Assembly (NCBI GenBank): GCA_017430145.1 | Contig: JAFRNP010000116.1 | Span: forward strand, 1-58,627 | Length of the DNA stretch: 58,627 bases | Origin: Clostridia bacterium | GTDB lineage: Bacteria; Bacillota; Clostridia; Oscillospirales; Acutalibacteraceae | Direction: 5' to 3' | Part shown: one piece after another, positions 1 to 38,813 of the stretch | Numbering within the stretch: position 1 is the stretch's first letter | Layout of the letters: each line of letters begins with the position of its first letter | Notes under the pieces: model-generated | What the model was told of the DNA's origin: nothing | Seen by the model: the letters and a program-made list of their open reading frames with translations, nothing else | The model's database searches: none | Made by a program: the position numbers and the translations under genes

Positions 1-1455
1 CAGGATCGCCGTTCCCAGCACCGCCAAAAAGAGGCAAAGCGCCCACCGCACGGTCGCCGTCTCCGGCGCCCGGATCCGGTCCGGGGTCTTCCGCTCGGCG
101 CCGAGCAGACAGAGCAGCGCCGTCAGGGAAAGGATCCCCCAAAGCACATAGTTCCCGGTCGCGGAGCACTTATAAAAGATCAGCACAAACCCATGCACGA
201 TGATAAACAGCATGACGGTCAGATGGTACTTTTTTGGAAGTCCCTGCGTCAGCGGTTCCCGCCGGATGCGGTTTTCGAGCACAAGATACAAAAGAATAAA
301 CGCCGGAATGCTCAAAAGCGCGTTTACAAGCAGATACTCCCGGATCAGCAGATTCATAATAATACCGCCGATAAGCATCGGAAGCGCCAGATAGGTCAGG
401 CACCGCCGGTACAGGTCGATCAGCGGGAGCCTGCGCAGCTGCATCAGACTCCGGATCCTGCCGAACAGCAGAAGCTGCGCCAGCAGGTACAGCGCAAACA
501 GCACGATCCCGTATGCGTACGGCTGAACGGTCAGGATCTTTACGAACAGGATAAAAGGCGCGATGAAAAGCAAAAACAGTTCGTCAAAAGCGGTCCCGCT
601 CTGCCAGACGCAGTCCTTATGCAGGTAGGACAGGCCGAAGGAAGCGCCGCCTGCCGCAACGGCGATCACGATCACCGCGACCCAGCCGAGCTTTCCCGTC
701 AGCGTGTCAAGGCTGACGTTCACCCGTCTGACCTGGACCAGGAACTGATACAGAAGAACGCTCAGGAGAACGAGGCAGGAAAAGAAGCTGGTGTTCCTGC
801 GAAAGCTCACTCCCCGCTTCGCGTGGAAATTGATGTTCCCGTTTTTTTGCGCAAACAGGACGGCAAAGATCCACATCAGAAGCAGCGGGACCGTGAGCGC
901 CAATACAGTACGCATGCCGGCGGTCCGCTCCTGCGTGCAGCCGTAGATCAGCGCTGCCAACGCGCCGAGAGAAAGCAGCATGGAAAAAACGATATCCGAA
1001 TTCTTGATGGATACAAACAGTCCGATGACCACGATGATCCCCGCCGCTATGACGACGAGGTTGCGCGGCAGACCGATACCGCCTCTGACCAGCCAATTGA
1101 GAAATTCCGTCAGCGCATGGACGCTTCCCGCCCGGAGGATCATATACCCGGCCAGGTCCGCGCCGAAAAGCGTAGGCAGGAGGTTGATCGCGGATTTTTC
1201 TTTGCGGGCGTTGAGAAACGTGATCAGAAGGGCAACAAGCTGGAGCGCGGCAAACACGCCGAGCAGGATCCCCTCCGCGCCGAAGAACGGGATCGAAAAA
1301 AAGAGTGCCGCAACAAGGCTCAGCAGCGCAAAACCGAAATTGGAGATATAAGAGAAGGTCTTCTGATCGATCTGCTTTTTCTCCTTCGGGATCTCCGCTG
1401 CCGAGGCGCCGCCGGCGTCAGGTGACAAGAAAGGACGATACGCAATGTGATTCAC
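1..1455 (-). CDS. Polytopic membrane protein, 3' end cut by window edge
   Basis: A frame of 485 codons stays open from a GTG start at 1455 to base 1, so the C-terminus lies outside the window. The GTG has GAAAGGAG eight bases upstream. The first 35 or so residues are polar (it begins MNHIAYRPFLSPDAGG); after that the protein is almost wholly hydrophobic, with roughly a dozen or more probable membrane helices separated by short basic loops. I see no catalytic motif and do not recognise the family. It lies 18 bases after the Sel1-like membrane protein and is the last visible gene of the run that starts with the GTPase, tubulin-like and VWA proteins, so it may be the integral membrane part of that system. 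That role is inferred from position only. Confidence 0.75.
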   Translation of the reverse strand, partial: MNHIAYRPFLSPDAGGASAAEIPKEKKQIDQKTFSYISNFGFALLSLVAALFFSIPFFGAEGILLGVFAALQLVALLITFLNARKEKSAINLLPTLFGADLAGYMILRAGSVHALTEFLNWLVRGGIGLPRNLVVIAAGIIVVIGLFVSIKNSDIVFSMLLSLGALAALIYGCTQERTAGMRTVLALTVPLLLMWIFAVLFAQKNGNINFHAKRGVSFRRNTSFFSCLVLLSVLLYQFLVQVRRVNVSLDTLTGKLGWVAVIVIAVAAGGASFGLSYLHKDCVWQSGTAFDELFLLFIAPFILFVKILTVQPYAYGIVLFALYLLAQLLLFGRIRSLMQLRRLPLIDLYRRCLTYLALPMLIGGIIMNLLIREYLLVNALLSIPAFILLYLVLENRIRREPLTQGLPKKYHLTVMLFIIVHGFVLIFYKCSATGNYVLWGILSLTALLCLLGAERKTPDRIRAPETATVRWALCLFLAVLGTAIL

Positions 1456-1473
1456 GGTTTTTTCTCCTTTCTC

Positions 1474-2559
1474 TTATAAAATGACCGCAAGCATGCCCGC
1501 CATCCAAACAAAGAACATACCGAACATGTAGATCGCATGGGAATTCAGCGGGTGCTGTTTGATCCTGACAGCGCCGAGCACGACCAGCAGGATCTCCGCC
1601 GCTGCGGCAAGGATCGGGATCAGGGGCCCGGCGGTTATGTTGAGGTCGATGCCCAGCAGAGGACGGCAAAACGGCAGAAGCAGGAAGCTGCCGATCAGGA
1701 CGATCGCAAGGAAGATGAAATTCTTCAGCAGCCTTTTCTGATAGACGCCGCTGTTGATCAGCGCCGCCACGCGCTCATGGGCGGGGGCGGAAGAATTCAG
1801 CTGCCCCAGCGTCGTCGCGTATTCCAGCGCCCGGCGGTAATGCACGTTCACATAGGGGGTGACGCGGGCGTTTTCGAAATGGTATTCGGTGAGCTGTTCC
1901 GTGGCAAGCTGGCTGCCGCGGGCGGCAGCGTTGCGCAGAAGCTGAACGCCCTCTTTTTCTTTGTAGGTGGAGATGTGCCCGTGGATCACCAGGTACCCCA
2001 GCAGCGCCCGCGCGTCGCGGTCGCCGCGGTTTGCGGCAGCTTCCAGCTTTTCCACCTGGTCGGGTATAACGGCGCCCGCATCGTCAAAAACCGTCTGCAT
2101 CGTCGGGCAGTCCGGGGTTTTGCGGTACTCAAGCCCGTCCCCGTCCGAATAGTCCCTGCACTCCGTCTCGTATAGCGCCGGCGCACGGCCGAGGGAATCG
2201 AGCATCGCATACAGGTATTTGAGGGCCAGGTTGCGGTTGAAATTGCGCAGGACCAACACCCGTACCACCCTGTCGAGGGCTGCGCGCTGCTCCGCGGTCG
2301 CGTCGACGGACAGCAGAAGCTGGATCTGCGCGGGGCATGCGTCAAGGATCAGCGCGATATCGTGCCTCTCCTGCTCGGTCATCCCCGCTTTTTCAGACGC
2401 CGCCATAAACTGTTCGCCGCCGGAATAGATCTCTGCCCCGCCGACGGCAACGGCCTGTCTGAGGCACTCCGTCAGCGTCCCCGCGCGGCGCATCTCCTTT
2501 GCGGTGAGGCGCGCGTCTGTCAATGTCAATTGTATATTTCTGATTGAAGCCTTTTTCAT
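1474..2559 (-). CDS. Sel1-like repeat protein with three C-terminal membrane helices
   Basis: A 361-residue protein of unknown function. The N-terminal 270 residues look soluble and helical. Residues about 165-225 contain two Sel1/TPR-like helical pairs (EAAANRGDRDARALLGYL, then LLRNAAARGSQLATEQL), a fold usually used for protein-protein contacts. The last 80 residues carry three hydrophobic segments at about 280-300, 308-330 and 342-361, so the soluble part should sit at the membrane, probably on the cytoplasmic side. The start lies 3 bases after the kinase-like gene, which implies translational coupling. It is most simply read as an adaptor linking the GTPase/kinase-like proteins to the envelope; no enzymatic motif is visible. 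Confidence 0.75.
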   Translation of the reverse strand: MKKASIRNIQLTLTDARLTAKEMRRAGTLTECLRQAVAVGGAEIYSGGEQFMAASEKAGMTEQERHDIALILDACPAQIQLLLSVDATAEQRAALDRVVRVLVLRNFNRNLALKYLYAMLDSLGRAPALYETECRDYSDGDGLEYRKTPDCPTMQTVFDDAGAVIPDQVEKLEAAANRGDRDARALLGYLVIHGHISTYKEKEGVQLLRNAAARGSQLATEQLTEYHFENARVTPYVNVHYRRALEYATTLGQLNSSAPAHERVAALINSGVYQKRLLKNFIFLAIVLIGSFLLLPFCRPLLGIDLNITAGPLIPILAAAAEILLVVLGAVRIKQHPLNSHAIYMFGMFFVWMAGMLAVIL

Positions 2560-2562
2560 CTC

Positions 2563-3696
2563 TTATTCATCCATCCACCCGATATCCGAAAAACACTGAA
2601 GCCACTGTTCGGGATCCGGCGTCACGGGTTCCCGGCGGCGCAGCGCATTGGAGGTCTTAAACGTGAGCAAAAACAGGTCTCTGAGCGCCTCAGGCGCCGC
2701 CTCCCACAGTTCGATCGTTGCCCCGAACATATCCGTCACGTCGGTCGTGATCCGGTTCCGGTTGTTTTCAGAGGGGTCGAAAATAAACTCGATGTTGCTT
2801 TCCTTGAGATAATAGTTCACCATATAATCGTAATGGGTGAACCGGTTGTTGACGTCGTCCTCACGCCCCATGAGCTGATGCCCGTCGTAGGGTTTTCTGC
2901 CGAACAGCAGGAAGAACAGCAGAGAAGCGAGACTGAAGTTCTGGGAATGGACGTCCGGCTGATGCAGCTTTTTGATCCCGCTGCCGGAGGTGACGTTGTT
3001 GATGGCAATATAGGGATCTGCAAATTCCAGGGGCATCCAGCCGTAGGAGACGTCAAAACGGACGTTTCCGTTCAGCGCCAGCAGCGGCGAAAAGTCCGGA
3101 TGGACGTCCAGCCGGCTGCCGACCATAAAGCGCGACAGATGAAAGTCATGGAAGTGGTAGTTGTACGCGTTGACCTTTTGGATCGCGCGCGTCAGATTGA
3201 CGGCGACCTTCCGGATGTTCGGGTTGCGGTAGTTGTTTTCTCCGCCGGAGGCGCCGCGCATCCAGACGTCAAGCGTCATGCAGGGCGGATAGCCGCCGGT
3301 CCCCGACGCAGGATCGTACCGGAACAAAAGCGCATGGTCGCTGGGGATCAGAACCGCGCCCTGTTCGTCTTCCAGATAATAGTGCCGCACGGCGGCGGAG
3401 ACCCGCGTCTCCTCTTTCAGCTCCACAAGGTCCGCCGGCCAGGAGGCAAACCCCACGCAGGGGTAAAGGATCTTATCGCGGTATTCGTTGATCGTGTTGA
3501 CGCTCTGGTAGAGCTTGATCTTTTTCAGAAAATATTTTTCATGCGTCAGAATGTTTTCCAGCAGCGGGACCTCATGCTGGTCCGTAAAAGGATCCGGCAG
3601 CGGAAGGGCGGAAAGCATTTCGCCGTTGTACGTATAAACGCCGCTGTTGAATATTTTGCTGAAATACAATTCATCCGCGTTGGTATAACTGCTCAT
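2563..3696 (-). CDS. Degenerate protein-kinase-like protein
   Basis: A 377-residue protein whose second half follows the outline of a protein kinase. HFHDFHLSRFMV at 181-192 resembles the catalytic loop H-x-D-x-H-x-x-N, with the Asp (184) kept but the metal-binding Asn replaced by Arg 189. FDVSYG at 214-219 sits where the DFG-type metal loop is expected. DVHSQNFSLASLLFFLLFGR at 248-267 resembles the conserved helix after the activation segment (D-x-x-S-L-x-x-x-L-x-x-L-L-x-G-R), and a closing R-R-R-x-P-T helix follows near 355. No clear glycine-rich loop is visible. It may therefore be a pseudokinase or a divergent kinase. The start has GAGGAG upstream. It follows the GAP1-like gene after a gap with four tandem hairpins. 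Confidence 0.65.
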   Translation of the reverse strand: MSSYTNADELYFSKIFNSGVYTYNGEMLSALPLPDPFTDQHEVPLLENILTHEKYFLKKIKLYQSVNTINEYRDKILYPCVGFASWPADLVELKEETRVSAAVRHYYLEDEQGAVLIPSDHALLFRYDPASGTGGYPPCMTLDVWMRGASGGENNYRNPNIRKVAVNLTRAIQKVNAYNYHFHDFHLSRFMVGSRLDVHPDFSPLLALNGNVRFDVSYGWMPLEFADPYIAINNVTSGSGIKKLHQPDVHSQNFSLASLLFFLLFGRKPYDGHQLMGREDDVNNRFTHYDYMVNYYLKESNIEFIFDPSENNRNRITTDVTDMFGATIELWEAAPEALRDLFLLTFKTSNALRRREPVTPDPEQWLQCFSDIGWMDE

Positions 3697-3722
3697 ATAT
3701 CTCCTCTGTCATCGGTTCTCGT

Positions 3723-3805
3723 TTTCCTGCCGCAGGTACGTCGGCAGGAAACGGGCAGACGCCCGCAAAGCCCGAACGTGATCGGGCCGGGCGGGCGCAA
3801 CGCCC
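3723..3805. other. Four tandem hairpins between the GAP1-like and kinase-like genes
   Basis: This 116-base gap between two collinear genes is nearly filled by four perfect inverted repeats. They are TTTCCTGCCG/CGGCAGGAAA (3723-3751, 10-bp stem), CGGGC/GCCCG (3752-3765), GCCCGA/TCGGGC (3770-3787) and GGGCG/CGCCC (3793-3805). None is followed by a strong T tract in the minus direction, so this looks more like an mRNA processing, stability or attenuation element than a plain terminator. It may set different expression for the upstream GAP1-like gene and the downstream kinase-like gene. Confidence 0.6.
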
Positions 3806-3812
3806 TTTTCAT

Positions 3813-6131
3813 TTACCTCTTGCCGTTCCTGGAATCAAAGCGCTGGACGTTCTTCGCCAGCTCCTTGACGAATTTGGAGGCATGCTTCTCGTCGCCTGCA
3901 CGCAGAAGCAGCGCACGGTACTTTTCTTCATTGAGCAGCTCGCTGTCCTCGTAAGCGTAGATCACTTTTTTATAGGAAAGCAGCGCAGGCTGCCAGGCAC
4001 CCGGATCCCGCGGCGTATCGAGCGTTGAGAACGGCGCGCGTCCGGCCAGTTCCTCGCAAAGCAGCCAGAGGTCGATGGGCGCCACCGCTTTGTCGGGATC
4101 CTCCGGCGAAAGCTTCTCGTCGTTGAGCTCGTTGAATTTTGCCATATCGAACAGCAGCCCTGAAACCATGGCGGCGACTTCGCGCCGCTGCATCAGAACG
4201 GGCATATTTTTATAAACGCTTCTGCACAGGGTGCGGTAATCAAGGGCCTTGAGATATCCCGCAAGCGTAAAGCAGAATCTGAGCGTCCCGCTGTCGGTGA
4301 ACAGCGCAAGGCCGATCCAGTCGGCGCAGATATCCGTGTCCTGCAGGCTCGGAAGCTGGCGCTTTGCCGTCGAATGCAAAAGCCCCGTCAGCTCCCGGAA
4401 CAGGGAGCATGCCTTGTTGACCTTCTCTTTTTCATTTTCCCAGACCGGCAGCGCCGACGCTACGGCGCCGTTAAGTCCAAGCAGGAACTGCTCGTAGGCC
4501 CCGGGAGAAGCGTGCTGCTTATCCATCAGCCCCACAAGCGCCGCGAAAAGATCCGATTTCATGCTCACGTACGTCAGATCCTGATCGTTCAGACGGAGCT
4601 TGGAGATCTGCATAAACTTATACTCTTCGCTGCGCTGGATCGTAAAGTCGGCAAGACGGAGGCTCGCCCAGTACGAGACGACCACGGGCTTCAGGCGTGC
4701 AACACACTCCGCTCTCGGGATCCCGGAGGCGTTGAGCACCGCCACCCACTGCTCCACACAGTCTTTGCCGCACTTCGGATCCGCCATAACGAGCTTGTTC
4801 ATCTCGTCGCCGATCATATCGAGCCAGCGGACCGTTTTTGCCTGCTTGTTTCTGGGGTCGGAGAGCTGGTCGGCAAGCGACGTCAGCTCCCGGAATACGG
4901 AGAGAACGGTATGGTTCCGGATACCGGCCGCCAGCTTCGGCTCCGTCACCTCGATCTTCGGCAGCAGATACCGGATATCGTTTTCGGACATGGAGACCTT
5001 TTGCGCGGCAGGCGCGGCAGTCGGTTCCGACATGCCGGGCATACCGGGCACGCCGGAGGCGCCGGGCACGCCGTTTGCCTGGGTATTATCGCCGGCAGTC
5101 GCCGGTACAAGACCGCGGGCGGCTGCCTCTTTTTCCCATTCGGCCAGCATCCCTTTGACGGCGTCCGAGATCTGGTAGCCGGTCTTTTTGACGAAGGCAA
5201 GCATGTCTGAGAGCCTTTCGTCCGGGACCTGCCGCAGTTTTTCCGCCGTCGGGTACAGGCACAGATAGTGAGCGACGCGCAGCTGCTCGTCGTTGGTCTC
5301 GCCGCCGATCTTTTCAGCCGCCCCTTGAAGCGCCGCAAAATAAGCGGCGATCTGTTCGGCGTCCCGGCAGTACGTCACCGCGTAATCCACGAACTCCAGC
5401 ATCCGGACGTTTTTGTCCACGTTTTCGGACAGAACGTTGTTGCGCCCGGTGGCAGGGTCGAAAAAGCGGTGGTGCCGGTCCGCATGGGAGGAGATCGCTA
5501 CGTTACGCACCTCGGAGTAGTTGTAGATCCCCACCGAAACGCTCATCTGCCTTGCCAGCGACGGCAGCATGCCGCGGTAGAGGCAGTACAGCAGCGCGCG
5601 GATCTTTAAGCTGTCGTTTTCACACTGGAGGGTCAGCACAGAACGGTTGCTGGAGCGGTGCGAGGTCTGGTACAGCGCACGGATCATGGCTGCGTAGTTC
5701 TCTCTGGTGAGCCCCAGAATGTTCATGGCGCTCTCCAGCGTAAAGGGCGGCAGCCGGTCAAAGGTATCCCGCGGGGCCTCCGCAGAAGGGATATCCTGAC
5801 AGAAATTGCTGTCGGCGACCGTTACGAATACGTTCGGGTCGAAAGTCGTTTTATCCAGCTCGATCTCAAACCCGTGGGAAAACATGTTCCGCCGTCCGCC
5901 GGCGCCGAAATCCTGCAGGCCGTAGCGGGTGCGGATCATCAGGACCCGGTCGTTTTCACCGATGGTCTCAAGGATCAGCAGCGGGTTGCCGTCCTCATCC
6001 AGATCATCGTCAGGCATGATCGCGTGTCTCGTCACTTCGCCGGATAACTTTCCGCAGTAATTGCCTTTAACGGCGACCGCCTGCCAGCCGTCGGCATTGG
6101 TATAACAGTACTGTATGATCTTATCCGCCAT
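3813..6131 (-). CDS. GTPase-associated protein 1 (GAP1-N2-like)
   Basis: A 772-residue soluble protein. The N-terminal 130 residues (IIQYCYTNADGW near the start, then a beta-rich segment with HGFEIELDKTTFDPNVF around 87-103) resemble, from memory, the N-terminal domain of GTPase-associated protein 1, which is encoded next to TRAFAC-type GTPases in proposed bacterial conflict or signalling systems. Helical regions follow. A Gly/Pro/Met/Ala-rich linker at about 340-372 (NGVPGASGVPGMPGM) separates the two halves, and the C-terminal 390 residues look all-helical with no catalytic motif. The gene ends 6 bases before the GTPase start in transcription order, which agrees with a direct GTPase partner. 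The family call is tentative; the partnership is supported by adjacency. Confidence 0.6.
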   Translation of the reverse strand: MADKIIQYCYTNADGWQAVAVKGNYCGKLSGEVTRHAIMPDDDLDEDGNPLLILETIGENDRVLMIRTRYGLQDFGAGGRRNMFSHGFEIELDKTTFDPNVFVTVADSNFCQDIPSAEAPRDTFDRLPPFTLESAMNILGLTRENYAAMIRALYQTSHRSSNRSVLTLQCENDSLKIRALLYCLYRGMLPSLARQMSVSVGIYNYSEVRNVAISSHADRHHRFFDPATGRNNVLSENVDKNVRMLEFVDYAVTYCRDAEQIAAYFAALQGAAEKIGGETNDEQLRVAHYLCLYPTAEKLRQVPDERLSDMLAFVKKTGYQISDAVKGMLAEWEKEAAARGLVPATAGDNTQANGVPGASGVPGMPGMSEPTAAPAAQKVSMSENDIRYLLPKIEVTEPKLAAGIRNHTVLSVFRELTSLADQLSDPRNKQAKTVRWLDMIGDEMNKLVMADPKCGKDCVEQWVAVLNASGIPRAECVARLKPVVVSYWASLRLADFTIQRSEEYKFMQISKLRLNDQDLTYVSMKSDLFAALVGLMDKQHASPGAYEQFLLGLNGAVASALPVWENEKEKVNKACSLFRELTGLLHSTAKRQLPSLQDTDICADWIGLALFTDSGTLRFCFTLAGYLKALDYRTLCRSVYKNMPVLMQRREVAAMVSGLLFDMAKFNELNDEKLSPEDPDKAVAPIDLWLLCEELAGRAPFSTLDTPRDPGAWQPALLSYKKVIYAYEDSELLNEEKYRALLLRAGDEKHASKFVKELAKNVQRFDSRNGKR

Positions 6132-6137
6132 CTTTTA

Positions 6138-7697
6138 TCACCCGATCTCGTTTCCGAGGTTGAAATACTGCTTGCAGCGCAGGCAGATGTAGTGGTATGT
6201 CACGTCGCGGGAACGGAAAAGCCCCGCTTTTTCACGGACGTTGGTGATCCTGAAACGGGTATGGTAGGAGCCGCACGCCGGGCAGCGGACGTCACGGCTT
6301 AATACGCCGTTGACCTCACAGTAGCCGTTTTTGGCAAGCAGCCACATCAGCGGGTCCTCCAGACGCTCCGGCGTCGGGGTCCCGATCATCTGATGGGTCT
6401 CCTCGTCGATGGGCGCGCCGCCCGTTGCGCTGAAGGCGAAGAACCGCTTCATCTCGTAGTTGTTGGCGGCGCTGATAATGCCGTTGTCGGGGTTTAATTC
6501 CAGCGCGTCGTACAGACTGTCGGAAAGGGCGTTGTACTGCTCCGCAGGGATGCCCTTGCGGTGGATATCGTAGGTCGCGCTCTGGGTCGCCAGCTCCTGC
6601 GTACGCTCGTCAAAGAAATACAGGAACTGCTCGGTATCCGACTTCGGGATGCAGACCGCAAGCGGCGTCGTCACCTTGGATTCCACCTTGCCGGCGCTCT
6701 GCAGCACCTGGTTGATGATGTTCAGCGCCGTCACGGCAGGGTTGCCCTGCCTGCCGTTGGACTGGAAGCTCAGGCCGTCCGTCTCCGTCAGCTGCTTGGG
6801 ATCGATCAGAAGGATGATCCCGTTGGCGTTTTCAAGCAGCGGGCGGCGGTGCTTATACTCCTTGGTGATATCGTACATGGGGTTGTTGTTGAAATATTCG
6901 CCCGCCAGGTCGTACAGCACGACCGTGTAGGTGGCGATACGGTTGTTGCCGATATCACGGGTCATATTGAAGATGATCGGCTGCTGGACCTCTTCCGCCT
7001 GGGTCGGGTCGGGCAGCTTTTTGCCTGCCTCCACCTTGTTGCGCTCGGCAAACGCGTAGGTACCGTTGCCGCTGGGCTTTGCGTCGTTGTAGCCGACCTT
7101 TGTCATGTAGTAATTGATCTTCCGAAGCAGCGTGGACATATACACGGTCTTACCGGAATTGGTCACGCCGATGATCGGGATCGTGATAACGGGCGCTTTG
7201 CCGTAGTTATCCGGCAGCGGGTTATTGCAGTACGGGCAGACCCGGCGGGAGCAGAGCATTTCGGGATGCAGGCGCGTAGCGCGCAGCTTGATGCCGCAGA
7301 CCATGTTGTCCGAGCCGCGGATCAGATAGCGTTCCCGGCTGTTGGGGACGGCCCGCTCGTTTTGCGGGACCAAATATTTCTGCCAGAAGGGCTCCTTCGG
7401 ATCGATGACGACACGGCGGTAAGGCAGCACGTAATTGGGGTCGCGCAGCTGCTCCGCCGGGTCCCGTTCACTGGAATTGAACACGTTGTTCCCCGTTTTG
7501 TCGGGACCGGTCCACCACTCTTTGTACGGCGTCATATAATTGTCGTTCAGGCTGATCGGCGAAAACGTACGCGCTTCGATCTGATCCGCTTCCGCAAGGT
7601 CGTCAAGCTCCGCGTGGTTCACAAACTCCGAACGGAACATGACCTCGTCGTCGCCGAACGCCCGGAAACAGTAGGGACATGTGATTCTGATTGCCAT
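6138..7697 (-). CDS. TRAFAC/double-GTPase-like GTPase with zinc ribbons
   Basis: A 519-residue P-loop GTPase. The motifs are clear: G1 GVTNSGKT at 177-184, G3 DLAG at 263-266, a G4-like PKSD at 351-354 (the usual form is [NT]KxD) and G5-like SATG at 423-426. Cysteine pairs frame the domain: C7/C10 (CPYC) at the N-terminus, C149/C154/C157 just before the P-loop, and C472/C475 with C505/C508 at the C-terminus, the last four forming a typical zinc ribbon. This matches the GTPases paired with GAP1 proteins (the DO-GTPase group, from memory). There are no membrane helices. The start has AAAGAGG upstream and overlaps the spacing of the preceding gene closely. It is probably the switch of the system; what it moves or controls is unknown. 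Confidence 0.75.
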   Translation of the reverse strand: MAIRITCPYCFRAFGDDEVMFRSEFVNHAELDDLAEADQIEARTFSPISLNDNYMTPYKEWWTGPDKTGNNVFNSSERDPAEQLRDPNYVLPYRRVVIDPKEPFWQKYLVPQNERAVPNSRERYLIRGSDNMVCGIKLRATRLHPEMLCSRRVCPYCNNPLPDNYGKAPVITIPIIGVTNSGKTVYMSTLLRKINYYMTKVGYNDAKPSGNGTYAFAERNKVEAGKKLPDPTQAEEVQQPIIFNMTRDIGNNRIATYTVVLYDLAGEYFNNNPMYDITKEYKHRRPLLENANGIILLIDPKQLTETDGLSFQSNGRQGNPAVTALNIINQVLQSAGKVESKVTTPLAVCIPKSDTEQFLYFFDERTQELATQSATYDIHRKGIPAEQYNALSDSLYDALELNPDNGIISAANNYEMKRFFAFSATGGAPIDEETHQMIGTPTPERLEDPLMWLLAKNGYCEVNGVLSRDVRCPACGSYHTRFRITNVREKAGLFRSRDVTYHYICLRCKQYFNLGNEIG

Positions 7698-7704
7698 CTC
7701 TCGT

Positions 7705-8388
7705 TTACCTCTTTCTGTTCAGATAGATTTTTTCGTTGCAAAGGTTCAGCATCTCCGGCTCGTTGGGCCCGGAATAGATGTAGAAACAACCGGTGCGAAG
7801 CATTTCCACCGTGATCGGGACCACGAAGCCGTTGACGGCGCAGGCGGCAAGTCCGTCCTGATAATAGTCGACGGCATCGCAGAACAGGCGGATCTCAAAG
7901 AACGGCGTATCCCGCTCCTCCTGCCCGTGGAACAGCCGCTTGACCATTTCGCGGTAACGCACGGCGGTCCAGGAGATCGTCATCGTGATATCCCGGTAGG
8001 GCTTCTGCGCGGGGCGGTCATAACGGGACTCATAAAGCTCCACGGTCTGGCCGTTGACCCGGTAGGAGAACACCGTATACCGGTGCAGGCTCCCGTCCAC
8101 CGCAAGCGTCTTATCCTGCTTGCGGGAAAACAGGACCTGCCGTTCGCCGTTTTTGTCCAGCGGGACCCACCGTTCAGCCAACAGCGAGCCGTCGGGCAGC
8201 AGCGCCTTCGGCAGCAGGTCCATAATGGACTCCAGCGTCTGCGTCTGCCCGGAGGGCGAGCGGACGAAGCAGGCGTAAAAGCCCGGCGCGTTGATCAGCG
8301 CCTTGAGGGACGTGCCGTTTCTCAGGACGTCGGTATTCAGCTTCATGGCGCTTTTGATCTCGTCGTGCGGATGGTACTCAAAATTCAT
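7705..8388 (-). CDS. Hypothetical protein of the GTPase/tubulin cluster
   Basis: A 227-residue soluble protein, mixed alpha/beta by eye and rich in Tyr, Phe and Arg, with no signal peptide, membrane helix or nucleotide-binding motif. I do not recognise the family. It starts with a good ribosome binding site (GGGGGAT, about 8 bases from ATG), 19 bases after the preceding 587-residue protein, and ends 7 bases before the GTPase start. Tight packing between those two genes suggests that it is a dedicated component, perhaps a regulator or adaptor of the GTPase. A role in substrate binding cannot be excluded. Confidence 0.7.
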   Translation of the reverse strand: MNFEYHPHDEIKSAMKLNTDVLRNGTSLKALINAPGFYACFVRSPSGQTQTLESIMDLLPKALLPDGSLLAERWVPLDKNGERQVLFSRKQDKTLAVDGSLHRYTVFSYRVNGQTVELYESRYDRPAQKPYRDITMTISWTAVRYREMVKRLFHGQEERDTPFFEIRLFCDAVDYYQDGLAACAVNGFVVPITVEMLRTGCFYIYSGPNEPEMLNLCNEKIYLNRKR

Positions 8389-8407
8389 CGTCTAATCCCC
8401 CTCTCCC

Positions 8408-10171: not shown

Positions 10172-10491
10172 TCGTTACCTCCCGGTTTGATTTCGGTCAC
10201 GCAGGCGCCGCAAAAAAGCGCTGCGTTCGACGTTATAATGAAGTTTCTCCCCTGGATCATGAAGGGAAAAACGTCGATCGCAAATTAATGATTCAGTTTT
10301 TTGCCATCCGGTCTTTAAAACAGAAATGGGGAAGGCTGTTCCCCATATGGTTTACAGACAGATTATGCCGCCCGATCGCAGCAGAAACCGGCCATACACG
10401 GCGCAGTCCTGTCTGAACCGACTGCTGACAGGCAGCGCCTGTCCGAATATCGGGCAGGCGCAACCTCGCGTTCACCCCTGGTGCAAATGCC
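10172..10491. other. Structured non-coding gap upstream of the 587-residue gene
   Basis: No protein-coding frame with gene-like character is seen here. Several inverted repeats are present. ATGGGGAA/TTCCCCAT lies at 10326-10346, CCTGTC/GACAGG lies near 10408-10432, and an 11-bp stem lies at 10435-10461 (GCGCCTGTCCG against CGGGCAGGCGC). The last pairs fully, with one G-U, only when read as plus-strand RNA; on the minus strand it has an A-C mismatch. Near 10233-10238 TATAAC could be a -10 for the minus-strand gene, but no good -35 was found. The gap probably holds a promoter and leader for the downstream genes, or a small RNA. Confidence 0.35.
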
Positions 10492-10552
10492 AAAGAGAAA
10501 GGCGCCGGGCTTTCGCTGCAAACGAAGAAAAGCGTTTGGCGCCTTCTCTTTT
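10492..10552. terminator. Long hairpin after the tubulin-like gene
   Basis: AAAGAGAAAGGCGCC (10492-10506) pairs with GGCGCCTTCTCTTT (10538-10551), and an inner CAAACG/CGTTTG stem closes the top. It starts 18 bases beyond the tubulin-like stop codon, so it can end or attenuate the VWA-tubulin transcript. A long pure T run is missing; the T-rich arm itself takes that place. Confidence 0.6.
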
Positions 10553-10569
10553 AAAGGAACGCTGTTTTA

Positions 10570-13500
10570 TCAGAAGCTGTGATTCATTTTGAAGTTCTCA
10601 AACTGATCGTAAAGATCGGCAAGGAACTTTTCGATCTCCGCTTTCTCAGCGAATTTTGCGGTCTGGTTGTACCAGCCGTTGATACGCTTCATAAACGCTT
10701 CGATCTTCGTATCAAGCACTGCGGCGGGATCCGCGTAAAGATCATTCTCCTTGTCGTTTGCCATGTTCCAGATCTGTTCCTTCAGCTCGGGATCCATATT
10801 TTTAAAGGACAGGTAAGCCTGATAGGACGGGATGACTGCAAACGGGAACTTACCGAGTTCCTTCATGCAGGTGAGTTTTTCTTCGTTCGTCTTGCCGCGC
10901 TCGTTCCAGCTGTAGGAAAGATCGTTGCCGACGATATCAATAATACCCGTGAACAGAGCAAGACAGAAAGCGTCCATCGCAAGGGAGCCGCTCTTGAGCT
11001 CCTTGAAGCGCGCCTCATACAGCGGTTTCACGTCGGCGACCGCCGCCTGCAGCTTCTCCATACGCTCGATCTGCGCCTGGGTGTCCATGACAAGCTGCGG
11101 GGCTTTCACGAACAGGTCGCGGTAGAAGCGGGTCGTGTACTTCATGCCGTCCGGATCGTTCATCGGATCCTTGTATTCCGCCTTGAGCTCCGTAACTTCC
11201 TCGATCATCTCCAGCGCGCCGGCAACGTTTTCCTCAAGCGCCGCAATGCCGTCCTTGATGGCGGACGCGCTGAGTTCGGCAAGGTTCGCGGCAGAACGGA
11301 TCGCCGCGGTCAGGTCTTCGCCCGCCTTGATGAGCGCTGCCGCCTTGTCCTCCGAGACGCCGTAATACTGGATCTGGCCCTGGGAGGTGATCTTGATCAG
11401 GCCGGCTTCCATCGCGTCGTCAAAGACCTTGACGTAATCCTCGACATACTTCAGCGTGACGTTGGAAGAGTTGAAGAACTGGATGGGAGACAGCGGCGCC
11501 AGTTTTCCCCAGTCACGGAATTTGCCGGGGATCTGCGGCATGCCGAGATAAGAGTGCAGCTTGGAATTCTGCGGTACGTTGTTTTCGGCGATCGGGATCC
11601 CTGAGATCGCGCTGAGCGACACGCCGTCATGCCGCATTTCGATAAAGATACGGTCCGTAACGGCGGAGGGGTTCACGATCAGGTTATAATTGATATTGGT
11701 ATTGGCGGCAGCCTGCTGGATCGCGGCGGAGATCGAGGGGATCGTGACCCAGCCGCTCATGGTGAGCCCGCCGGTATCCTGTACCTTGGAGTTGGTCTCG
11801 AACAGCGGACGCGCCTTGTTGAACAGATTCTGCAGACGCGCCTGCACGTATTGGGTCACGTTGTCGTTGGTGACCTGCGTGTAATCGTGCAGGGAATTGT
11901 CGTGGGCGTACGCCATACGCAGATAGTCGTCGATGGTCTTGTTGACGAAGGAATTGAACAGGCCGTGCTCGGTATCGACAAAGAACTGGACGATGTAATC
12001 GCAGAACTGCGCTTTGTTCTCCGTGAACAGCATGTCGCGGTCGCGCATCAGATACGTCATGAAGTTGCCGAAGGCGTCCGGTACGTTCGGCACCGACTTG
12101 GCGATCTCCTCATCCAGCGTCTTTTTGATCTGGTCCATGGTCAGCAGATACTCGGCATAGGAGGTATCCACCGCCAGCGGCGTGTCGGATTCGATGTCCT
12201 TTTCGTTCTGCAGGAAAGTTTCCATCAGCTCGTTGAAAACGTTGAGCAGACGGATATAATAGGTATCGGCCTCCGTGATCAGCTGCTTTTTGAACTCATA
12301 CAGGATCTTGCCGAGGCGTCTGAACATATGGACCTCGGAAAGCTGCGCCATGTAGCCGATGAGCGCCTCTTCCGCGATGGCGCTCTTTTTCTTGAGCGAC
12401 AGGCTGCCGGCGGTCTTCGCGTCAAGGACCGCGTTGTTGTACTCGGCGACGCGGGACTGGATGTTCAGCTCCTTGTTGTTGAGGGTCTGGATGTTCTGGG
12501 CGATCAGGCCGTCGATGATGTTGACCAGGCTCCCCTTCTCCGCACGCTTGATGGCGCCGTAGGCGTAAGCCGGTCCCTTGGTCACGTCGCAGGCGACCAT
12601 GTTGAGCTGCCGCTTGATCTGCCCCAGCAGCGAACCGGAGTTGTTGATATCCAGCATGGACTTCATGTTGGTCTCATACACGCCGATCTTCTGGTTGAGC
12701 TGCGGTTCATAGTGATCGTAGAGCTGACGCGGGATCTGGATGTCCGCACCCATGCGGGCAAGCATATCCTTATCGGTGACGATGTTGTTCCAGTCGACGT
12801 CCTTGATGTCATACTGGAAGGGTGCAAACATGGTCGGGTTCGCCTTATTGTAAAGCTGGCGAAGAATGCCGTCGTAAACGGCGTTCTGGCCCATGCCGCC
12901 GCGGGCATACGCGTTGCATGCGATCCGCATGATATCGTCCGCGATCGGGAACGCAGTCCCCCTGGAGGTAAAGATCTTGTTAAATTCGCTGAACAGACGC
13001 GCGGTCAGATACGTGTTGATCTCACGGAACGGCACGATGGCGCAGGAGGAACCCATGGAGGAATAGTTGCAGTTATAGCCGCAGGTCCGCTTGGCTTCCG
13101 CCTGGTGCATCTTGGTATCGGCGTTGGAGATCTCGGAGATCATGTCGTGGTCTTTGCCCGCCGCGTCCACAAAGAAGTCCAGCAGATATTCCGTGACCAC
13201 GTTCATCGCGTAATTGTATGCCGTTTTGCCGTGGCCGTTCATCACGGCGCCCTGGTTGCTGATGATGTGGCAAAGGTGCACGGGGGCACTGCTCCACGGG
13301 ATCGGACGAACGGGAGACGTATTATAGACTTGATCGAACGCACCGTGGTTCTTCGCCAGAGACATGCAGTAATCCAGATCCTGCATCGCGCCGTAGCCGT
13401 TGTTGCGGATATACGCTTTCACGTCCGCAGCGGCGACCACGTCCTCGTTGACCTGGGGCAGGAAGAAATAGCCGATGATGTTGGCGTCCGGGAAGTATTC

Positions 13501-14100
13501 CTTGAGCATGTAGCACAGATCCAGGAAGGTACCGGAGCCGGTGCCGCCGCCCATACCGGAGATCACGTGGATGTACGCACGGGAGGCACCGTCCGCCATT
13601 TTGCTGATGGCAAGGCCGCTGGTGGCTTCATTATAGATATTCTGGATCCGGGTGATGACCTTTTGGGCGTTGCCCGCAAGATACAGTCTGCCCAGCGGAC
13701 GCACACCGGACGCGCCGGCGCCGCTGCCTGCCTTCAGGGACCCGTCCTTGGGCACCCAATCCTGCCACTGTACGCCGTCGTGCAGCGCGTCGATCAGGGA
13801 ATGGTCCTCGATGTTGATGATCTCGTCGGCGTCCAGACCCATGATGTTGCTTTCATCGTTCTGTCCGTCCGCCTTGATATCGGTATCGATGCTCAGGAAC
13901 TTGATGCGGTGGAACCTGCCGTTCGTGTCGTCGCCGTTGAAACGAAGACGCTGGAACGACTGCGTCTTGATCATCTTCGTGCAGAACGTTCCCGTTCCGC
14001 CGAGGCCGATCACGATGTTCGCACAGTTCTTCGCCTGTCTGCTCTTCTGCGCCATGCTGGTCACGCCGCCGCCGTTGATAAGTAACAGTTTGTTATACAT
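10570..14100 (-). CDS. Tubulin/FtsZ-superfamily GTPase-like protein (tubulin-like), 1176 residues
   Basis: The N-terminal 400 residues carry the tubulin/FtsZ nucleotide-binding signature: GLGGTG at 32-37 on the first strand and GMGGGTGSG at 182-190, the diagnostic glycine-rich T4 loop. Both are intact, so GTP binding is expected. The remaining 770 residues are mainly helical, with charged stretches that could form coiled coils, far longer than FtsZ (about 350-400 residues). No membrane helix is seen. This fits the Tubulin_2-type family of large bacterial tubulin-like proteins rather than the cell-division protein. The chosen ATG has GGGAGG 6-8 bases upstream; a second Met at residue 16 lacks a site. 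The gene follows the VWA gene by 23 bases and is probably co-transcribed. Whether it polymerises cannot be told from sequence. Confidence 0.8.
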   Translation of the reverse strand: MYNKLLLINGGGVTSMAQKSRQAKNCANIVIGLGGTGTFCTKMIKTQSFQRLRFNGDDTNGRFHRIKFLSIDTDIKADGQNDESNIMGLDADEIINIEDHSLIDALHDGVQWQDWVPKDGSLKAGSGAGASGVRPLGRLYLAGNAQKVITRIQNIYNEATSGLAISKMADGASRAYIHVISGMGGGTGSGTFLDLCYMLKEYFPDANIIGYFFLPQVNEDVVAAADVKAYIRNNGYGAMQDLDYCMSLAKNHGAFDQVYNTSPVRPIPWSSAPVHLCHIISNQGAVMNGHGKTAYNYAMNVVTEYLLDFFVDAAGKDHDMISEISNADTKMHQAEAKRTCGYNCNYSSMGSSCAIVPFREINTYLTARLFSEFNKIFTSRGTAFPIADDIMRIACNAYARGGMGQNAVYDGILRQLYNKANPTMFAPFQYDIKDVDWNNIVTDKDMLARMGADIQIPRQLYDHYEPQLNQKIGVYETNMKSMLDINNSGSLLGQIKRQLNMVACDVTKGPAYAYGAIKRAEKGSLVNIIDGLIAQNIQTLNNKELNIQSRVAEYNNAVLDAKTAGSLSLKKKSAIAEEALIGYMAQLSEVHMFRRLGKILYEFKKQLITEADTYYIRLLNVFNELMETFLQNEKDIESDTPLAVDTSYAEYLLTMDQIKKTLDEEIAKSVPNVPDAFGNFMTYLMRDRDMLFTENKAQFCDYIVQFFVDTEHGLFNSFVNKTIDDYLRMAYAHDNSLHDYTQVTNDNVTQYVQARLQNLFNKARPLFETNSKVQDTGGLTMSGWVTIPSISAAIQQAAANTNINYNLIVNPSAVTDRIFIEMRHDGVSLSAISGIPIAENNVPQNSKLHSYLGMPQIPGKFRDWGKLAPLSPIQFFNSSNVTLKYVEDYVKVFDDAMEAGLIKITSQGQIQYYGVSEDKAAALIKAGEDLTAAIRSAANLAELSASAIKDGIAALEENVAGALEMIEEVTELKAEYKDPMNDPDGMKYTTRFYRDLFVKAPQLVMDTQAQIERMEKLQAAVADVKPLYEARFKELKSGSLAMDAFCLALFTGIIDIVGNDLSYSWNERGKTNEEKLTCMKELGKFPFAVIPSYQAYLSFKNMDPELKEQIWNMANDKENDLYADPAAVLDTKIEAFMKRINGWYNQTAKFAEKAEIEKFLADLYDQFENFKMNHSF

Positions 14101-14123
14101 ACATATCCTCCCGAATATATTAT

Positions 14124-16535
14124 TTATCTTTTTCTTTTTCCGCCGGATTTCGGTTCATACAGGACCGTAAAGCTGATCGAACCGTTGCTGTAGCCGCCGT
14201 CGTCATAGCCGCCGTCGTAGCTGTCGTTGGCGTTGCCGCCGAAGCTGCCGCCGGTGTTGCCGAAGCCGTCGTAGCTGTAACCGCCGTTCTGGCCGTTGTC
14301 TCCGAAACCGCCGTCGCCGTAGCCGAAGCCGCCGCCGTTATTGTTTCCGAAGCCGCCGCCGTTGCCGCCGAAGCCGCCGAAACCGCCGAAACCGCCCTGC
14401 TGGCCGTTATTGCCGAAACCGCCGCCGGGCTTGCCGCCCTGGTTGCCCTTGGGCGCCGAAGGCTTGCCGGCCGGCGCGTTCGGTACGGTGATCATGTATT
14501 CCCTGCCTGCCTGGATCTTCATTTTCTTTGCGGGCTTGGACACGCCGCACGTGACCGGGCGGTCCGTAACAAAGGTAATGAAGTTGCCCGCCTGCGCCTG
14601 GAAATAGGACTTTCTCTGGTCAAGTCCGACGTTCGGCAGGCCGCTGAACTTAGCAAGGATACATTTGCCCTTTCCGGGGTATTCCAGAATGACCGGATTG
14701 TAGGTGTCCTGCGGCGTGATGGTGATCGGGCCGCGGAAGCGCATTCCGGCAAGCCGCACGGAAATGAAGATGAGCGCGCCGGCGCCGAGAAGGACCAGGA
14801 TCCCGAAAATGATCGCCGTGACCCTGCCGATGTGGTTGATCTTCAGCACCACCTTGAAATCCACGGATTCTCCGCGGGTATCGTAGCAGGTGAACCGGAA
14901 ATCGCCTTTTGAAGCGCCGGGCGAGTAAACGGTAAGTTCCTTCGTCTGCGGGTCGTAGGTAAAGTCCTTATCGTCAAAGGTCTTCGACGTCAGCTGCACT
15001 TCCAGATCCTCAATGGGATCCTGACTGTCGCTGAAATACTGCTTCAGGTCGTAGAGCTTTACGTTTTTCTTAAAGGGCCAGAGACTGATCTTGTCTTCCA
15101 GCACGGCCGGATTCACCGTGGGCGGGTCGTTGGGCAGCAGGTTCGGATCCAGCGTAAACTCGATCGGGCCGATCACGTCGGAAGCTCTGTGGATCTCAGA
15201 TCCGGGCTCGCCGTCCACGTCGAAATCCACGTCCACGTCGAATTTAAATGCGCCCTCTTCCATGGTCAGCGCCGCTTCCAGATGGTCGCCGTTTACCTTC
15301 ATGGGTTCGGAACGGATGACTTTACCGAATTTATCCCGGACGTTGACCTTCGCTTCAAAGCCCTGATAATCGTCGGCTGCAGCCGTTTTCGTATCGTCCT
15401 TCAGAAACGCCGTGATCGTGTACGGGTCATTAGGGCTGAGGATGGTCTCTGCCGACGCCGCCTGCGCGGTCACTTCCAGATACGTGTTCTCGAGGCATTG
15501 GATGCCGACTTCGTCGCCGGGCGTCCCGGTCAGGTGGAGCTTCCATTCGCCGCGTACAACGTCCGCGATCTTCAGCAGCTGATACGCGTTGCTGTCCAGG
15601 CCCTCCTGGCATTGGGCGTCGGAACCGTCCGGCTTCGTCACCTGATAACCGGTGACAGGTCCGTACAGGACGATATTGATCGCGTTGACGCCGATGCCCG
15701 GGACGTGGAAAACGGCGTCCAGGCTCCCGCTGGACGGGATCGTGATACGTCCGCCGTTATCGTCATCCGGAGGAGGCGCATCCTGGTTCAGCATCTGCAA
15801 TAACGTTGCAGACGCAAGCGGCAGATCGTTGGAATCATGGATCTCGATAAACCGTCCGTCAGTCTGCGTCGCCACCGCCTGCATTTCGTCGACCCTTGAG
15901 GTCCCGCCGGCGTTCAGGCAGAGGCTGAATACCTTGATCCCTTCGTCTCTGGCGTTCTGAATCGCGGTATCCTTCAGTTCCCGGGAGGCGGTCTCTTTCT
16001 TCGCGTCGCGCTGTCCCTTTCCGTTGAGGATCTCCGTGTTGCCGTCGCTGAAAAAGACGATCACGTTCGGCACGTCGGGGTTTGCGGCGTGCTCCGCCTT
16101 GAGCATATCCACCGCCACGTTCAGCGCCTCGCCGATATTGGTGTCGTCCGCCTTCGTGGGATCCGGCGCGCTCTGGATTTTCGTGAGCACTGAGGTCTTC
16201 ACGTCCGGCGTAATCGTCTGCAGGTCGACCTTTTCATCGACCTTGGTGGCAAAGCGCACGTAACCGAGCTTGTTGGGCTGCGAATCGTCCAGCAGTTCGA
16301 TAAACAGCTTTGCCGCTTCGTCGCGCAGGCGCTGCGGGTCGGAATTGGACGACAGCGAGCCGCTGGCGTCCATGACCAGCACCAAATTATAGGTGTTGCT
16401 GCCGGTCTGCGACGAACCGCCGGGCTGCGCAGGCGCGCCGGGCTGCGCGGCAGGCGGCGCCGACGCCGCTGCAAACGCAAAAAATGCCGTTGCGGCCAGC
16501 AGCAACGCCAGTACAACGCTCAAGCATTTTCTCAT
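14124..16535 (-). CDS. Secreted, membrane-anchored VWA protein with Gly-rich tail
   Basis: An 803-residue protein. Residues 1-25 form a signal peptide and residues 48-245 a von Willebrand A domain with MIDAS motif DASGS at 56-60, a TNIGEAL threonine and a later VFFSDGN aspartate, so metal-dependent ligand binding is likely. Beta-rich, Ig-like segments follow, then one membrane helix at about 572-597. The roughly 200 residues after it should be cytoplasmic: a small beta-rich domain, a 100-residue Gly/Asn/Phe/Tyr-rich stretch (repeats of GGFGGFGG), and a basic end (GGKRKR). I chose ATG 16535 because GAGGTG lies 7 bases upstream; an in-frame TTG at 16553 has no site and would spoil the signal peptide. 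It heads the operon and could link the outside to the tubulin-like protein. Confidence 0.8.
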   Translation of the reverse strand: MRKCLSVVLALLLAATAFFAFAAASAPPAAQPGAPAQPGGSSQTGSNTYNLVLVMDASGSLSSNSDPQRLRDEAAKLFIELLDDSQPNKLGYVRFATKVDEKVDLQTITPDVKTSVLTKIQSAPDPTKADDTNIGEALNVAVDMLKAEHAANPDVPNVIVFFSDGNTEILNGKGQRDAKKETASRELKDTAIQNARDEGIKVFSLCLNAGGTSRVDEMQAVATQTDGRFIEIHDSNDLPLASATLLQMLNQDAPPPDDDNGGRITIPSSGSLDAVFHVPGIGVNAINIVLYGPVTGYQVTKPDGSDAQCQEGLDSNAYQLLKIADVVRGEWKLHLTGTPGDEVGIQCLENTYLEVTAQAASAETILSPNDPYTITAFLKDDTKTAAADDYQGFEAKVNVRDKFGKVIRSEPMKVNGDHLEAALTMEEGAFKFDVDVDFDVDGEPGSEIHRASDVIGPIEFTLDPNLLPNDPPTVNPAVLEDKISLWPFKKNVKLYDLKQYFSDSQDPIEDLEVQLTSKTFDDKDFTYDPQTKELTVYSPGASKGDFRFTCYDTRGESVDFKVVLKINHIGRVTAIIFGILVLLGAGALIFISVRLAGMRFRGPITITPQDTYNPVILEYPGKGKCILAKFSGLPNVGLDQRKSYFQAQAGNFITFVTDRPVTCGVSKPAKKMKIQAGREYMITVPNAPAGKPSAPKGNQGGKPGGGFGNNGQQGGFGGFGGFGGNGGGFGNNNGGGFGYGDGGFGDNGQNGGYSYDGFGNTGGSFGGNANDSYDGGYDDGGYSNGSISFTVLYEPKSGGKRKR

Positions 16536-16575
16536 ATTCTTCACCTCATACAAAATATTTAAATCTATTTAGTTA

Positions 16576-33441: not shown

Positions 33442-33458
33442 TTGTATACACCCGCGTA

Positions 33459-33941
33459 TCAGAGCCTTCCGTTCAAAAACCGGTCGATGCTGTCTATAAT
33501 CGTCTGCGTATTGCTTTCGTACCGGTTATAGGTCGTCGCTTTGACTTCCTGCAGCGCGTCGGCAAGCTTTTCACAGTCGTCGCAGGCGCAGATCAGCCCC
33601 AGTTCCGTAAACTGTTCCAGAAGCTGCGTCTGGTGGTCGTCCACGTGTTCGCCGTATTTTTTCAGGCGCGGCACGGCGATCACCTTTTTCCCCTGCTTGA
33701 CGGCGCCGATGATGGCGCCCGTCCCGCCGTGGGTGATGACGATATCCGCCTGGGCCGTCTTTTCGGCAAACGCTTCGCGGCTCATAAAAGGCTCAAAATC
33801 GAAATGCTGCGGCTGATAGTCCGAATAGCCTGTCTGGGCAAATACCGGCTCCGTGATCGTCCCGTTTTCCACAAGGGCGTCCACGGCTTTCAAAAGCCGG
33901 TCGAACTGGAATTTCTGAGAGCCCAAAGTAATAAAAATCAT
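33459..33941 (-). CDS. PssE/Alg13-like glycosyltransferase catalytic subunit
   Basis: A 160-residue protein equal to the C-terminal nucleotide-sugar-binding half of a GT28 transferase. MIFITLGSQKFQFDRLLKAV opens it, THGGTGAI (about 90-97) is the family's UDP-binding glycine motif, and PRLKKYGEHVDDHQ follows. Proteins of this type need an Alg14/PssD partner at the membrane; that partner is encoded 12 bases upstream. Together they should add the second sugar to the lipid-linked primer. AAGGAGG lies 7 bases before the ATG. Confidence 0.85.
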   Translation of the reverse strand: MIFITLGSQKFQFDRLLKAVDALVENGTITEPVFAQTGYSDYQPQHFDFEPFMSREAFAEKTAQADIVITHGGTGAIIGAVKQGKKVIAVPRLKKYGEHVDDHQTQLLEQFTELGLICACDDCEKLADALQEVKATTYNRYESNTQTIIDSIDRFLNGRL

Positions 33942-33953
33942 CGCGCGCCCTCC

Positions 33954-34421: not shown

Positions 34422-34526
34422 TGCAAAGGTCCTTCCGTTATTTTGCTGATAATAAAAGCTTTCATTCAAAAATCAAAGCGCTTCCGGGGCCTACTTTTCG
34501 CATTCCGGATCCTGTTCCGGCGTTTT

Positions 34527-35740: not shown

Positions 35741-35766
35741 TTTGACACGCCCTTCTTTTGCCGCGC

Positions 35767-36846: not shown

Positions 36847-36866
36847 TTTTTCTCTTCCCGGATCAA

Positions 36867-38779: not shown

Positions 38780-38813
38780 CCGAGTCACCTTCCCGCTTTC
38801 GTTAGTGTATGCA

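Follow-up and report, generated by a model that had tools for sequence, protein, structure and literature searches.

The stretch of DNA analysed here (the window) comprises 58,627 nucleotides, positions 1 to 58,627 of contig JAFRNP010000116.1 of a Clostridia bacterium (assembly GCA_017430145.1), and carries at one end a set of nine genes that, judging from domain content and gene order, almost certainly belongs, as a divergent member, to the GAP1-N2 DO-GTPase systems of the tubulin theme, overlapping the operons that bring together FtsZl1, vWA, GTPase and kinase genes. By gene content and conservation, the cassette comprises a predicted core of six genes, coding for a vWA protein, a tubulin-like protein, two proteins called u587 and u227, a GTPase and its GTPase-associated protein 1 (GAP1), and an optional arm of kinase-like, Sel1-like, polytopic and second vWA genes. 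The combination of vWA, tubulin-like protein and GTPase (with kinases and membrane proteins) was already described in 2010 and 2020, and the two genome studies, both cited here from part of their text, assign it different jobs: membrane remodelling for Makarova and Koonin (PMC2875224) and conflict with invaders for Kaur, Burroughs, Iyer and Aravind (PMC7159879). The split between core and optional arm, together with the relatives named below, gives places to test these rival ideas; if our proposed mechanism is true, the cassette would offer an example, in a bacterium, of a receptor on the outside that controls a tubulin-family protein via a dedicated GTPase.

Gene content of the cassette

The window is the end of contig C100 in a genome of 3.03 Mb (86.6% complete, 180 contigs). 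Nine long open reading frames (ORFs), all present and open, occupy the minus strand from 16553 to 1 and are separated, from 5' to 3', by 23, 398, 19, 7, 6, 116, 3 and 18 bp (Table 1); their G+C content, 0.55-0.60 per 2 kb, does not stand out. Because the ninth gene, for a polytopic membrane protein, is truncated at the contig end, nine genes are a minimum and the operon may extend further. The first-pass annotation, made from the sequence alone, had described nine closely packed genes on one strand, which holds with nine as a lower bound, and we recover the motifs it had listed: the metal ion-dependent adhesion site (MIDAS) DASGS at residue 62 of the vWA protein, the glycine loop GGGTGSG at 184 of the tubulin-like protein, the P-loop GVTNSGKT at 177 of the GTPase, and the membrane segments, called here from a simple hydropathy scan. 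Its GAP1-like partner and zinc-ribbon TRAFAC GTPase stand as well and can now be specified as of GAP1-N2 and DO-GTPase2 type.

Outright Pfam matches were obtained for three window proteins (Table 1); no significant match of their own was found for the remaining six cassette proteins, the NCBIfam scan of the window proteins gave nothing near the cut-offs, and the Pfam scan returned neither MoxR nor PP2C among the nine.

Table 1. Features of the cassette in the window, with their occurrence among the 32 close loci defined below
Feature	Position	Strand	Basis or remark	Close loci (of 32)
vWA receptor	14124..16553	-	Pfam VWA, 1.1e-14; alternative ATG at 16535	20 (first vWA)
Tubulin_2 / FtsZl1-type tubulin-like protein, 1176 aa	10570..14100	-	Pfam Tubulin_2 (PF13809), 7.8e-48 over residues 29-372	26
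398-bp gap with hairpin, between tubulin-like gene and u587	10172..10569	-	fold and motif scan	
u587, third core gene, fold unrecognised, without membrane segment	8408..10171	-	conservation in close loci	27
u227, small protein	7705..8388	-	conservation in close loci	30
DO-GTPase2-type TRAFAC GTPase	6138..7697	-	Pfam DO-GTPase2 (PF19993), 2e-8, 34.6 bits against a cut-off of 27	
GAP1, N2 type	3813..6131	-	via homologues	31
Kinase-fold protein	2563..3696	-	family profile against PDB	22
Sel1-like protein with three C-terminal membrane segments (within 277-361)	1474..2559	-	conservation in close loci	21
Polytopic membrane protein, cut by contig end	1..1455	-	14 hydrophobic segments	15 (by profile)

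The vWA protein has a signal-peptide-like start, the vWA domain with its MIDAS, an ectodomain, one membrane segment and a Gly-rich cytosolic tail, with hydrophobic segments at 10-28 and 581-599. Pfam gave no YtkA match in this protein, and no dedicated test for a vWA-YtkA fusion was made. The tubulin-like protein and u227 each have a lone hydrophobic segment, at 1040-1058 and 179-197, respectively.

Relation to described systems

The class assignment comes from homologues of the GAP1 protein: at E <= 0.1, 15 of 23 match GAP1-N2 (PF20013; best 2.7e-8) and 7 of 23 match GAP1-M (PF20014; best 2.8e-6), while the GAP1 protein of the distant locus L076 matches GAP1-N2 at 2.2e-39; we therefore place the cassette among the GAP1-N2 DO-GTPase systems, in their tubulin theme. 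The DO-GTPase/GAP1 systems were defined by Kaur et al., according to whom about 52% of GAP1-N2 neighbourhoods show this theme; Firmicutes members have two genes each for tubulin and vWA (PMC7159879), one of the vWA proteins having several membrane helices. Further marks of the theme are a vWA-YtkA fusion, a GAP1 extended by a polar C-terminus and a coiled coil following the tubulin domain. The window has in common with it a zinc-knuckle DO-GTPase, a downstream GAP1-N2 protein, a tubulin-domain protein, a membrane-anchored vWA and a Firmicutes host, and some of its relatives also share two tubulin-like genes and a second, multi-helix vWA. It differs in having one tubulin-like gene, where two are expected, and one vWA gene, the contig being cut; at least two tubulin matches, some of them split ORFs, occur in 6 of the 32 close loci (L038, L041, L054, L055, L057 and L066), and a second vWA gene lies nearby in 10. 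It adds a conserved probable pseudokinase, a Sel1-like three-helix protein and a polytopic protein, which go unmentioned in the sections of PMC7159879 drawn on here. The FNIII component of the theme is unrecognised in the window; u227, for which Pfam and PDB searches gave neither an fn3 match nor a recognised relative, is by its place a possible, unconfirmed counterpart.

The GTPase itself fits the DO-GTPase family. Among 21 aligned GTPases, G182, K183, T184, D263, G266, E267 and D354 are invariant and K352 nearly so; the conserved Walker B Glu of the family is thus present as E267, within the motif DLAGE at 263. The window protein has KSD, the usual preceding N or T being missing. Its CxxC pairs lie at 7 and 154 on the N-terminal side and at 472 and 505 in the C-terminal part, whereas the tubulin theme has two N-terminal zinc ribbons; by eye, the N-terminal zinc knuckles are ~140 residues apart, compared with ~12 in the DO-GTPase of the distant locus L021.

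Indeed, a similar context had been reported earlier. Makarova and Koonin described FtsZl1, since linked to the Pfam Tubulin_2 model (available part of PMC9871819), together with vWA, GTPase and protein kinases, and the window shares with these operons a Tubulin_2 protein, a vWA (mostly with intact MIDAS), a P-loop GTPase, kinase and membrane proteins (PMC2875224). FtsZl1 proteins have an N-terminal FtsZ-like domain with a GGGTG(S/T)G loop, which the window protein shows as GGGTGSG, together with a coiled coil and a C-terminal domain made of alpha-helices. The window kinase is degenerate, unlike theirs, and GAP1 is unnamed in the portion of that paper used here. Two further kinds of system differ from the window: the active-kinase theme of GAP1-N2 systems, by the degenerate kinase and the absence of a PP2C match, and the MoxR-vWA ternary systems, by the absence of a MoxR match. 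In a methanogen, an operon for vWA proteins and a tubulin-like protein, there called CetZ, is upregulated under motion (PMC12008871, in part), its kinship with the cassette being putative, and a DO-GTPase is mentioned in phage-shock operons (PMC11237479, in part). Apart from this transcript result on the methanogen, our literature search, which did not reach most subscription papers or any supplements, found no experimental study of such a gene set.

Conservation in close relatives

With the window GTPase as a single query, matches came from 7 of the 394 genomes searched in the order (the window's own genome and, strongly, three others among them) and none from the contigs of named genomes. 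Two of the genomes, G343 and G097, agree with the window in the order of six genes (tubulin-like, u587, u227, GTPase, GAP1, kinase-like), and the sequence of G267 begins inside the tubulin-like gene, at a contig end. A profile of four GTPases, run against the named genome contigs, found 41 distinct loci. The close clade was cut at a GTPase E-value below 1e-115, giving 32 loci besides the window (33 with it); because L037, L053 and L066 repeat G267, G343 and G097, L055 and L057 are near-identical and L042, L043, L044, L046, L047 and L051 form a tight group, independent cases number fewer than 32. Many of the relatives are labelled as from rumen, reticulum or other animal samples, and they include Lactococcus hodotermopsidis Hs30E4-3 and [Eubacterium] cellulosolvens LD2006.

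The order shared by the clade is vWA, tubulin-like protein, a protein of ~600 aa, one of ~220 aa, zinc-ribbon GTPase and GAP1, then kinase-like and Sel1-like proteins (counts in Table 1, where misses include contig ends and the 10-kb reach of the sequence examined). Four of the six loci without a tubulin-like gene (L035, L042, L058 and L062) have less than 2.3 kb of contig upstream of the GTPase. The real exceptions are L050, where a lone GTPase follows gyrase-like and other genes and the contig ends 82 bp past it, and L056. The latter (L056:2-17709, Bifidobacterium callimiconis) shows four DO-GTPase matches, GAP1, kinase-like and Sel1-like genes, and no tubulin-like match in the stretch examined.

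In the 19 loci with all six core genes, window included, pairwise distances of the tubulin-like protein, u587, u227, GTPase and GAP1 correlate at r = 0.95-0.98, with 0 of 500 permutations as high; host relatedness and the five tight-group loci among the 19 contribute to these values. Co-inheritance of this kind supports reading the cassette as a single putative machine. We reject chance neighbourhood for the close clade, on gene order, on the co-occurrence of both halves in 26 of the 32 loci and on their co-location in genomes of the class. The first-pass annotation had inferred one membrane-spanning machine, to be refuted by related clusters that consistently lack either half; in this clade the refutation fails, in that the outward-facing vWA protein, the GTP switch in the cytosol and the tubulin-family protein belong to a single conserved unit.

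Distribution beyond the close clade

Across the class (391 genomes, E <= 1e-10), matches to the GTPase profile were found in 9 genomes and matches to the tubulin-like profile in 7. All three strong tubulin-like matches (> 600 bits; G000, G097 and G709) lie within 10 kb of a GTPase match, the other cassette genes of G709 (L076) being of more distant form. As for the four weaker matches, reading the stretch around the one in G681 revealed a GTPase gene overlooked by the profile scan, G514 and G493 show no GTPase in about 20 kb, and G554 was left out of the neighbourhood reading. Conversely, six of the nine GTPase-bearing genomes lack a tubulin-like match at this threshold. Within the genus, the GTPase occurs in 1 of 26 genomes; three others (G006, G019 and G024) have weak matches to the tubulin-like protein, and no GTPase was found in the neighbourhoods of these matches in G006 and G019. 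A plasmid search with the tubulin-like protein returned only 3 records (Meiothermus, Allomeiothermus and Thermus), at 19-28% query coverage.

The distant loci L033, L076 and L077 are ordered tubulin-like protein, a gene for ~590-780 aa, second vWA, a gene for ~170-210 aa and GTPase, their two unnamed genes being equated with u587 and u227 by place and size only; for u587, the equivalence rests on place because comparing its profile with the third genes of these loci (only three sequences) gave nothing significant. No tubulin-like match was found in the stretches examined of nine more distant loci (L064, L065, L067-L070 and L072-L074). The halves of the cassette can thus live apart in distant relatives and travel together in the close clade.

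Another arrangement, possibly a separate system, is seen in L014, L016, L017, L018, L019 and L079, where a Tubulin_2 protein comes with two others, one of ~650-750 aa and one a very large membrane protein with many helices. The secreted protein that precedes them matches vWA in L014 and L017 only and is suggested elsewhere by place and appearance. As in the window, the Tubulin_2 protein is flanked by a secreted protein on one side and large membrane proteins on the other; unlike the window, these modules gave no profile match for GTPase, GAP1, u587 or u227 in about 19 kb each. Their third gene was considered as u587 and discarded, no relation being detectable. The same fate met u587 as a diverged tubulin, the profile comparison being empty: Tubulin_2 matches stay sub-threshold, in 1 of 20 u587 members (0.092) and in the L076 gene in the u587 place (0.03), and no convincing relative of u587 appeared in Pfam or among solved structures.

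The kinase-like, Sel1-like and polytopic arm

At E <= 0.1, 4 of 20 kinase-like homologues match Pkinase (best 4e-4), and their 20-member profile finds protein kinases in the PDB (best 6.9e-11), with 826 sequences at E <= 1, of which the 60 listed are all kinases or kinase-fold Tribbles. Tribbles is a pseudokinase. Of the 20 aligned members, 11 keep the catalytic Asp and 3 the catalytic Asn; in the DFG motif, 14 retain the Asp and none the Gly (motif columns assigned by eye). Because this glycine is kept in none of the aligned members, the window protein is probably a pseudokinase, and the degeneracy already remarked upon in the first annotation extends to all 20. The name Sel1-like rests on a repeat-like consensus seen by eye, without a Pfam match. 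This kinase/Sel1 arm is optional, since eight close loci with downstream sequence lack it (L040, L042, L043, L044, L047, L051, L063 and L071, L043 reaching only 3.9 kb past the GTPase).

Proposed assembly and rival explanations

The cassette as a whole is best explained, in our view and with somewhat better than even confidence, as a membrane-spanning, GTP-switched assembly; that it forms a GTP-controlled assembly close to the membrane we hold to be rather probable. As to its purpose, we would put envelope stress or remodelling at an even chance and an anti-invader role clearly below that, as a tentative option. The model is based on gene content, motifs, hydropathy segments, co-inheritance and purifying selection in relatives; signal flow, polymerisation and output are inferred. 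The vWA ectodomain (with the second vWA in some relatives) would bind a peptide, a metal-coordinated ligand or a strained part of the envelope, and the signal, relayed by the vWA tail and by the Sel1-like protein and the polytopic protein in the membrane, would throw an on/off switch made up of GTPase and GAP1, the pseudokinase serving as a non-enzymatic scaffold or allosteric partner. In its GTP-bound state, the switch would permit the tubulin-like protein, u587 and u227 to form an assembly on the inner side of the membrane that would brace, remodel or seal it. A bolder version, in which the kinase-like, Sel1-like and polytopic proteins form an exchangeable arm that makes the vWA-tubulin-GTPase core a transmembrane stress receptor, the pseudokinase gating the GTPase that controls a tubulin-family scaffold at the inner membrane, strikes us as improbable.

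Several observations weigh against such an assembly. The distances of the vWA protein correlate less well with those of the other core genes (0.79-0.87), and less well still with those of the kinase (r = 0.46, n = 12, a value reached by 4 of 500 permutations). The kinase-like gene is missing in 10 of the 32 close loci, among them the eight with downstream sequence. In the distant L013, L014 and L017, a tubulin-like gene stands beside a vWA match without any GTPase match. The L053/L054 pair has a mosaic look, with identities of 69% for the GTPase, 33% for the tubulin-like protein and 22% for u587; it seems that part of the cassette was exchanged or that paralogues are being compared. For most other listed pairs the GTPase and tubulin-like identities are nearer each other, the other departures being L061/L066 (56% vs 34%, with a partial tubulin-like gene) and L053/L059 (49% vs 33%). 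Six of seven family alignments, the kinase-like one being the exception, place the window protein among their most divergent members, and function may therefore have drifted. One has to keep in mind, finally, that filament formation, expected and unproven in the FtsZl1 family, is doubted in the literature: the T6-H7 elements of the family defied alignment by Makarova and Koonin (PMC2875224, in part).

Some of these points would also suit two independent operons, vWA-tubulin-like and GTPase-GAP1-kinase, made neighbours by chance, with the 398-bp gap as their boundary: distant relatives can have either half without the other, L053/L054 looks mosaic, and the gap holds a hairpin (10480-10572; fold -28.8 kcal/mol, z -2.17, 4 of 200 shuffles equally stable) and four terminator-like matches on the minus strand. 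We consider this very improbable. Indeed, the tubulin-like protein correlates at 0.98 with u587 and at 0.97 with u227, both encoded beyond the gap on the side of the GTPase, and at 0.95 with the GTPase itself, four of the six close loci in which the GTPase lacks its tubulin-like companion are contig ends, and the same gap in relatives with both flanking genes called runs from a 4-bp overlap to 128 bp (ORFs read from the first start codon). No minus-strand promoter-like site was found inside the 398 bp, which may represent a processing or partial termination site.

A conflict system directed against phages or plasmids, in which the switch would respond to an invader at the membrane and the tubulin-like assembly would confine the invader or kill the cell, seems to us unlikely, although the cassette belongs to the class so read by Kaur et al. 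(available sections of PMC7159879). Its patchy occurrence fits such a role, with the GTPase in a single genome of the genus and strong tubulin-like and GTPase matches together in only 3 of the 391 class genomes (G681 being a fourth case). In the GTPase tree the Lactococcus sequence stands beside a Clostridia one (100/97), which would fit transfer. Actinomycetota rows fall in two places of the tree; L050 was left out of it, and the place of the window in it is unsure because its end branch is very long (2.24).

Against a conflict role, no known effector domain is seen in the cassette, and a PADLOC scan of the nine window proteins gave no convincing match (best 0.002). No clear defence neighbour was seen among 57 flanking ORFs of the relatives, a weak test in that 16 of the 73 listed were dropped by eye, mostly likely shadow ORFs and some maybe real. 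Seven PADLOC models matched one flanking ORF each: RT_UG29 and the RTasDnaG-like model hit the same DnaG-primase-like ORF, leaving the reverse-transcriptase part uncovered, two pVip (viperin-type) models hit one ORF of L055, and three further matches, untraced, are to Cas-type models. A reverse-transcriptase neighbour was discarded, as motif inspection of the primase-like ORF found no such signature. A faster-evolving vWA, as a sign of an arms race, was not seen either: the ratio of non-synonymous to synonymous substitution rates (dN/dS) of vWA resembles that of GAP1 and u227 in close pairs. Overall, dN/dS is 0.04-0.44 in five scored locus pairs, four of them within the tight group (a sixth pair was saturated and the window has no partner close enough), and among the six core genes it is usually lowest in the GTPase and the tubulin-like protein.

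No better placed, in our estimate, is a machine for membrane remodelling, vesicles or cell shape in ordinary physiology, as proposed for the FtsZl1 operons in 2010. The vWA, GTPase, kinase and membrane proteins do reproduce the FtsZl1 context (PMC2875224, in part), and several membrane proteins are conserved in the cassette; however, its distribution among close relatives is very patchy, which speaks against a core role in physiology, and filament-forming elements are unrecognised in the FtsZl1 family, according to the part of that paper cited here.

Second vWA genes and neighbouring genes

With a single vWA gene before the contig end, we looked for a second one elsewhere in the window's own genome. 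The second-vWA protein of L036 found no match there, and a profile search found a vWA2-like protein of 513 aa with five segments on contig C45 (7.9e-19). It shows no visible link to the cassette: its neighbours match no cassette profile and the ends of C45 have no 20-mers in common with the C100 end. This five-segment second vWA-type gene, at L085:3815-5353 (-), adjoins, by eye, AbiEii-type nucleotidyltransferase-like and recombinase-like genes.

Neighbourhoods vary among relatives. By eye, the cassette adjoins TerD-like genes and a probable P-type ATPase at L044:14735-20635, and Tad/Flp-type secretion-like genes at L040:15013-21554. In the window, the minus strand beyond the cassette carries one ORF of 4070 aa (18585-30797), with a signal-peptide-like start and without a Pfam match, and then, at 31115-38830, genes for glycerophosphotransferase, glycosyltransferase, UDP-sugar dehydrogenase, epimerase, nucleotidyltransferase and GHMP kinase, probably a surface polysaccharide cluster.

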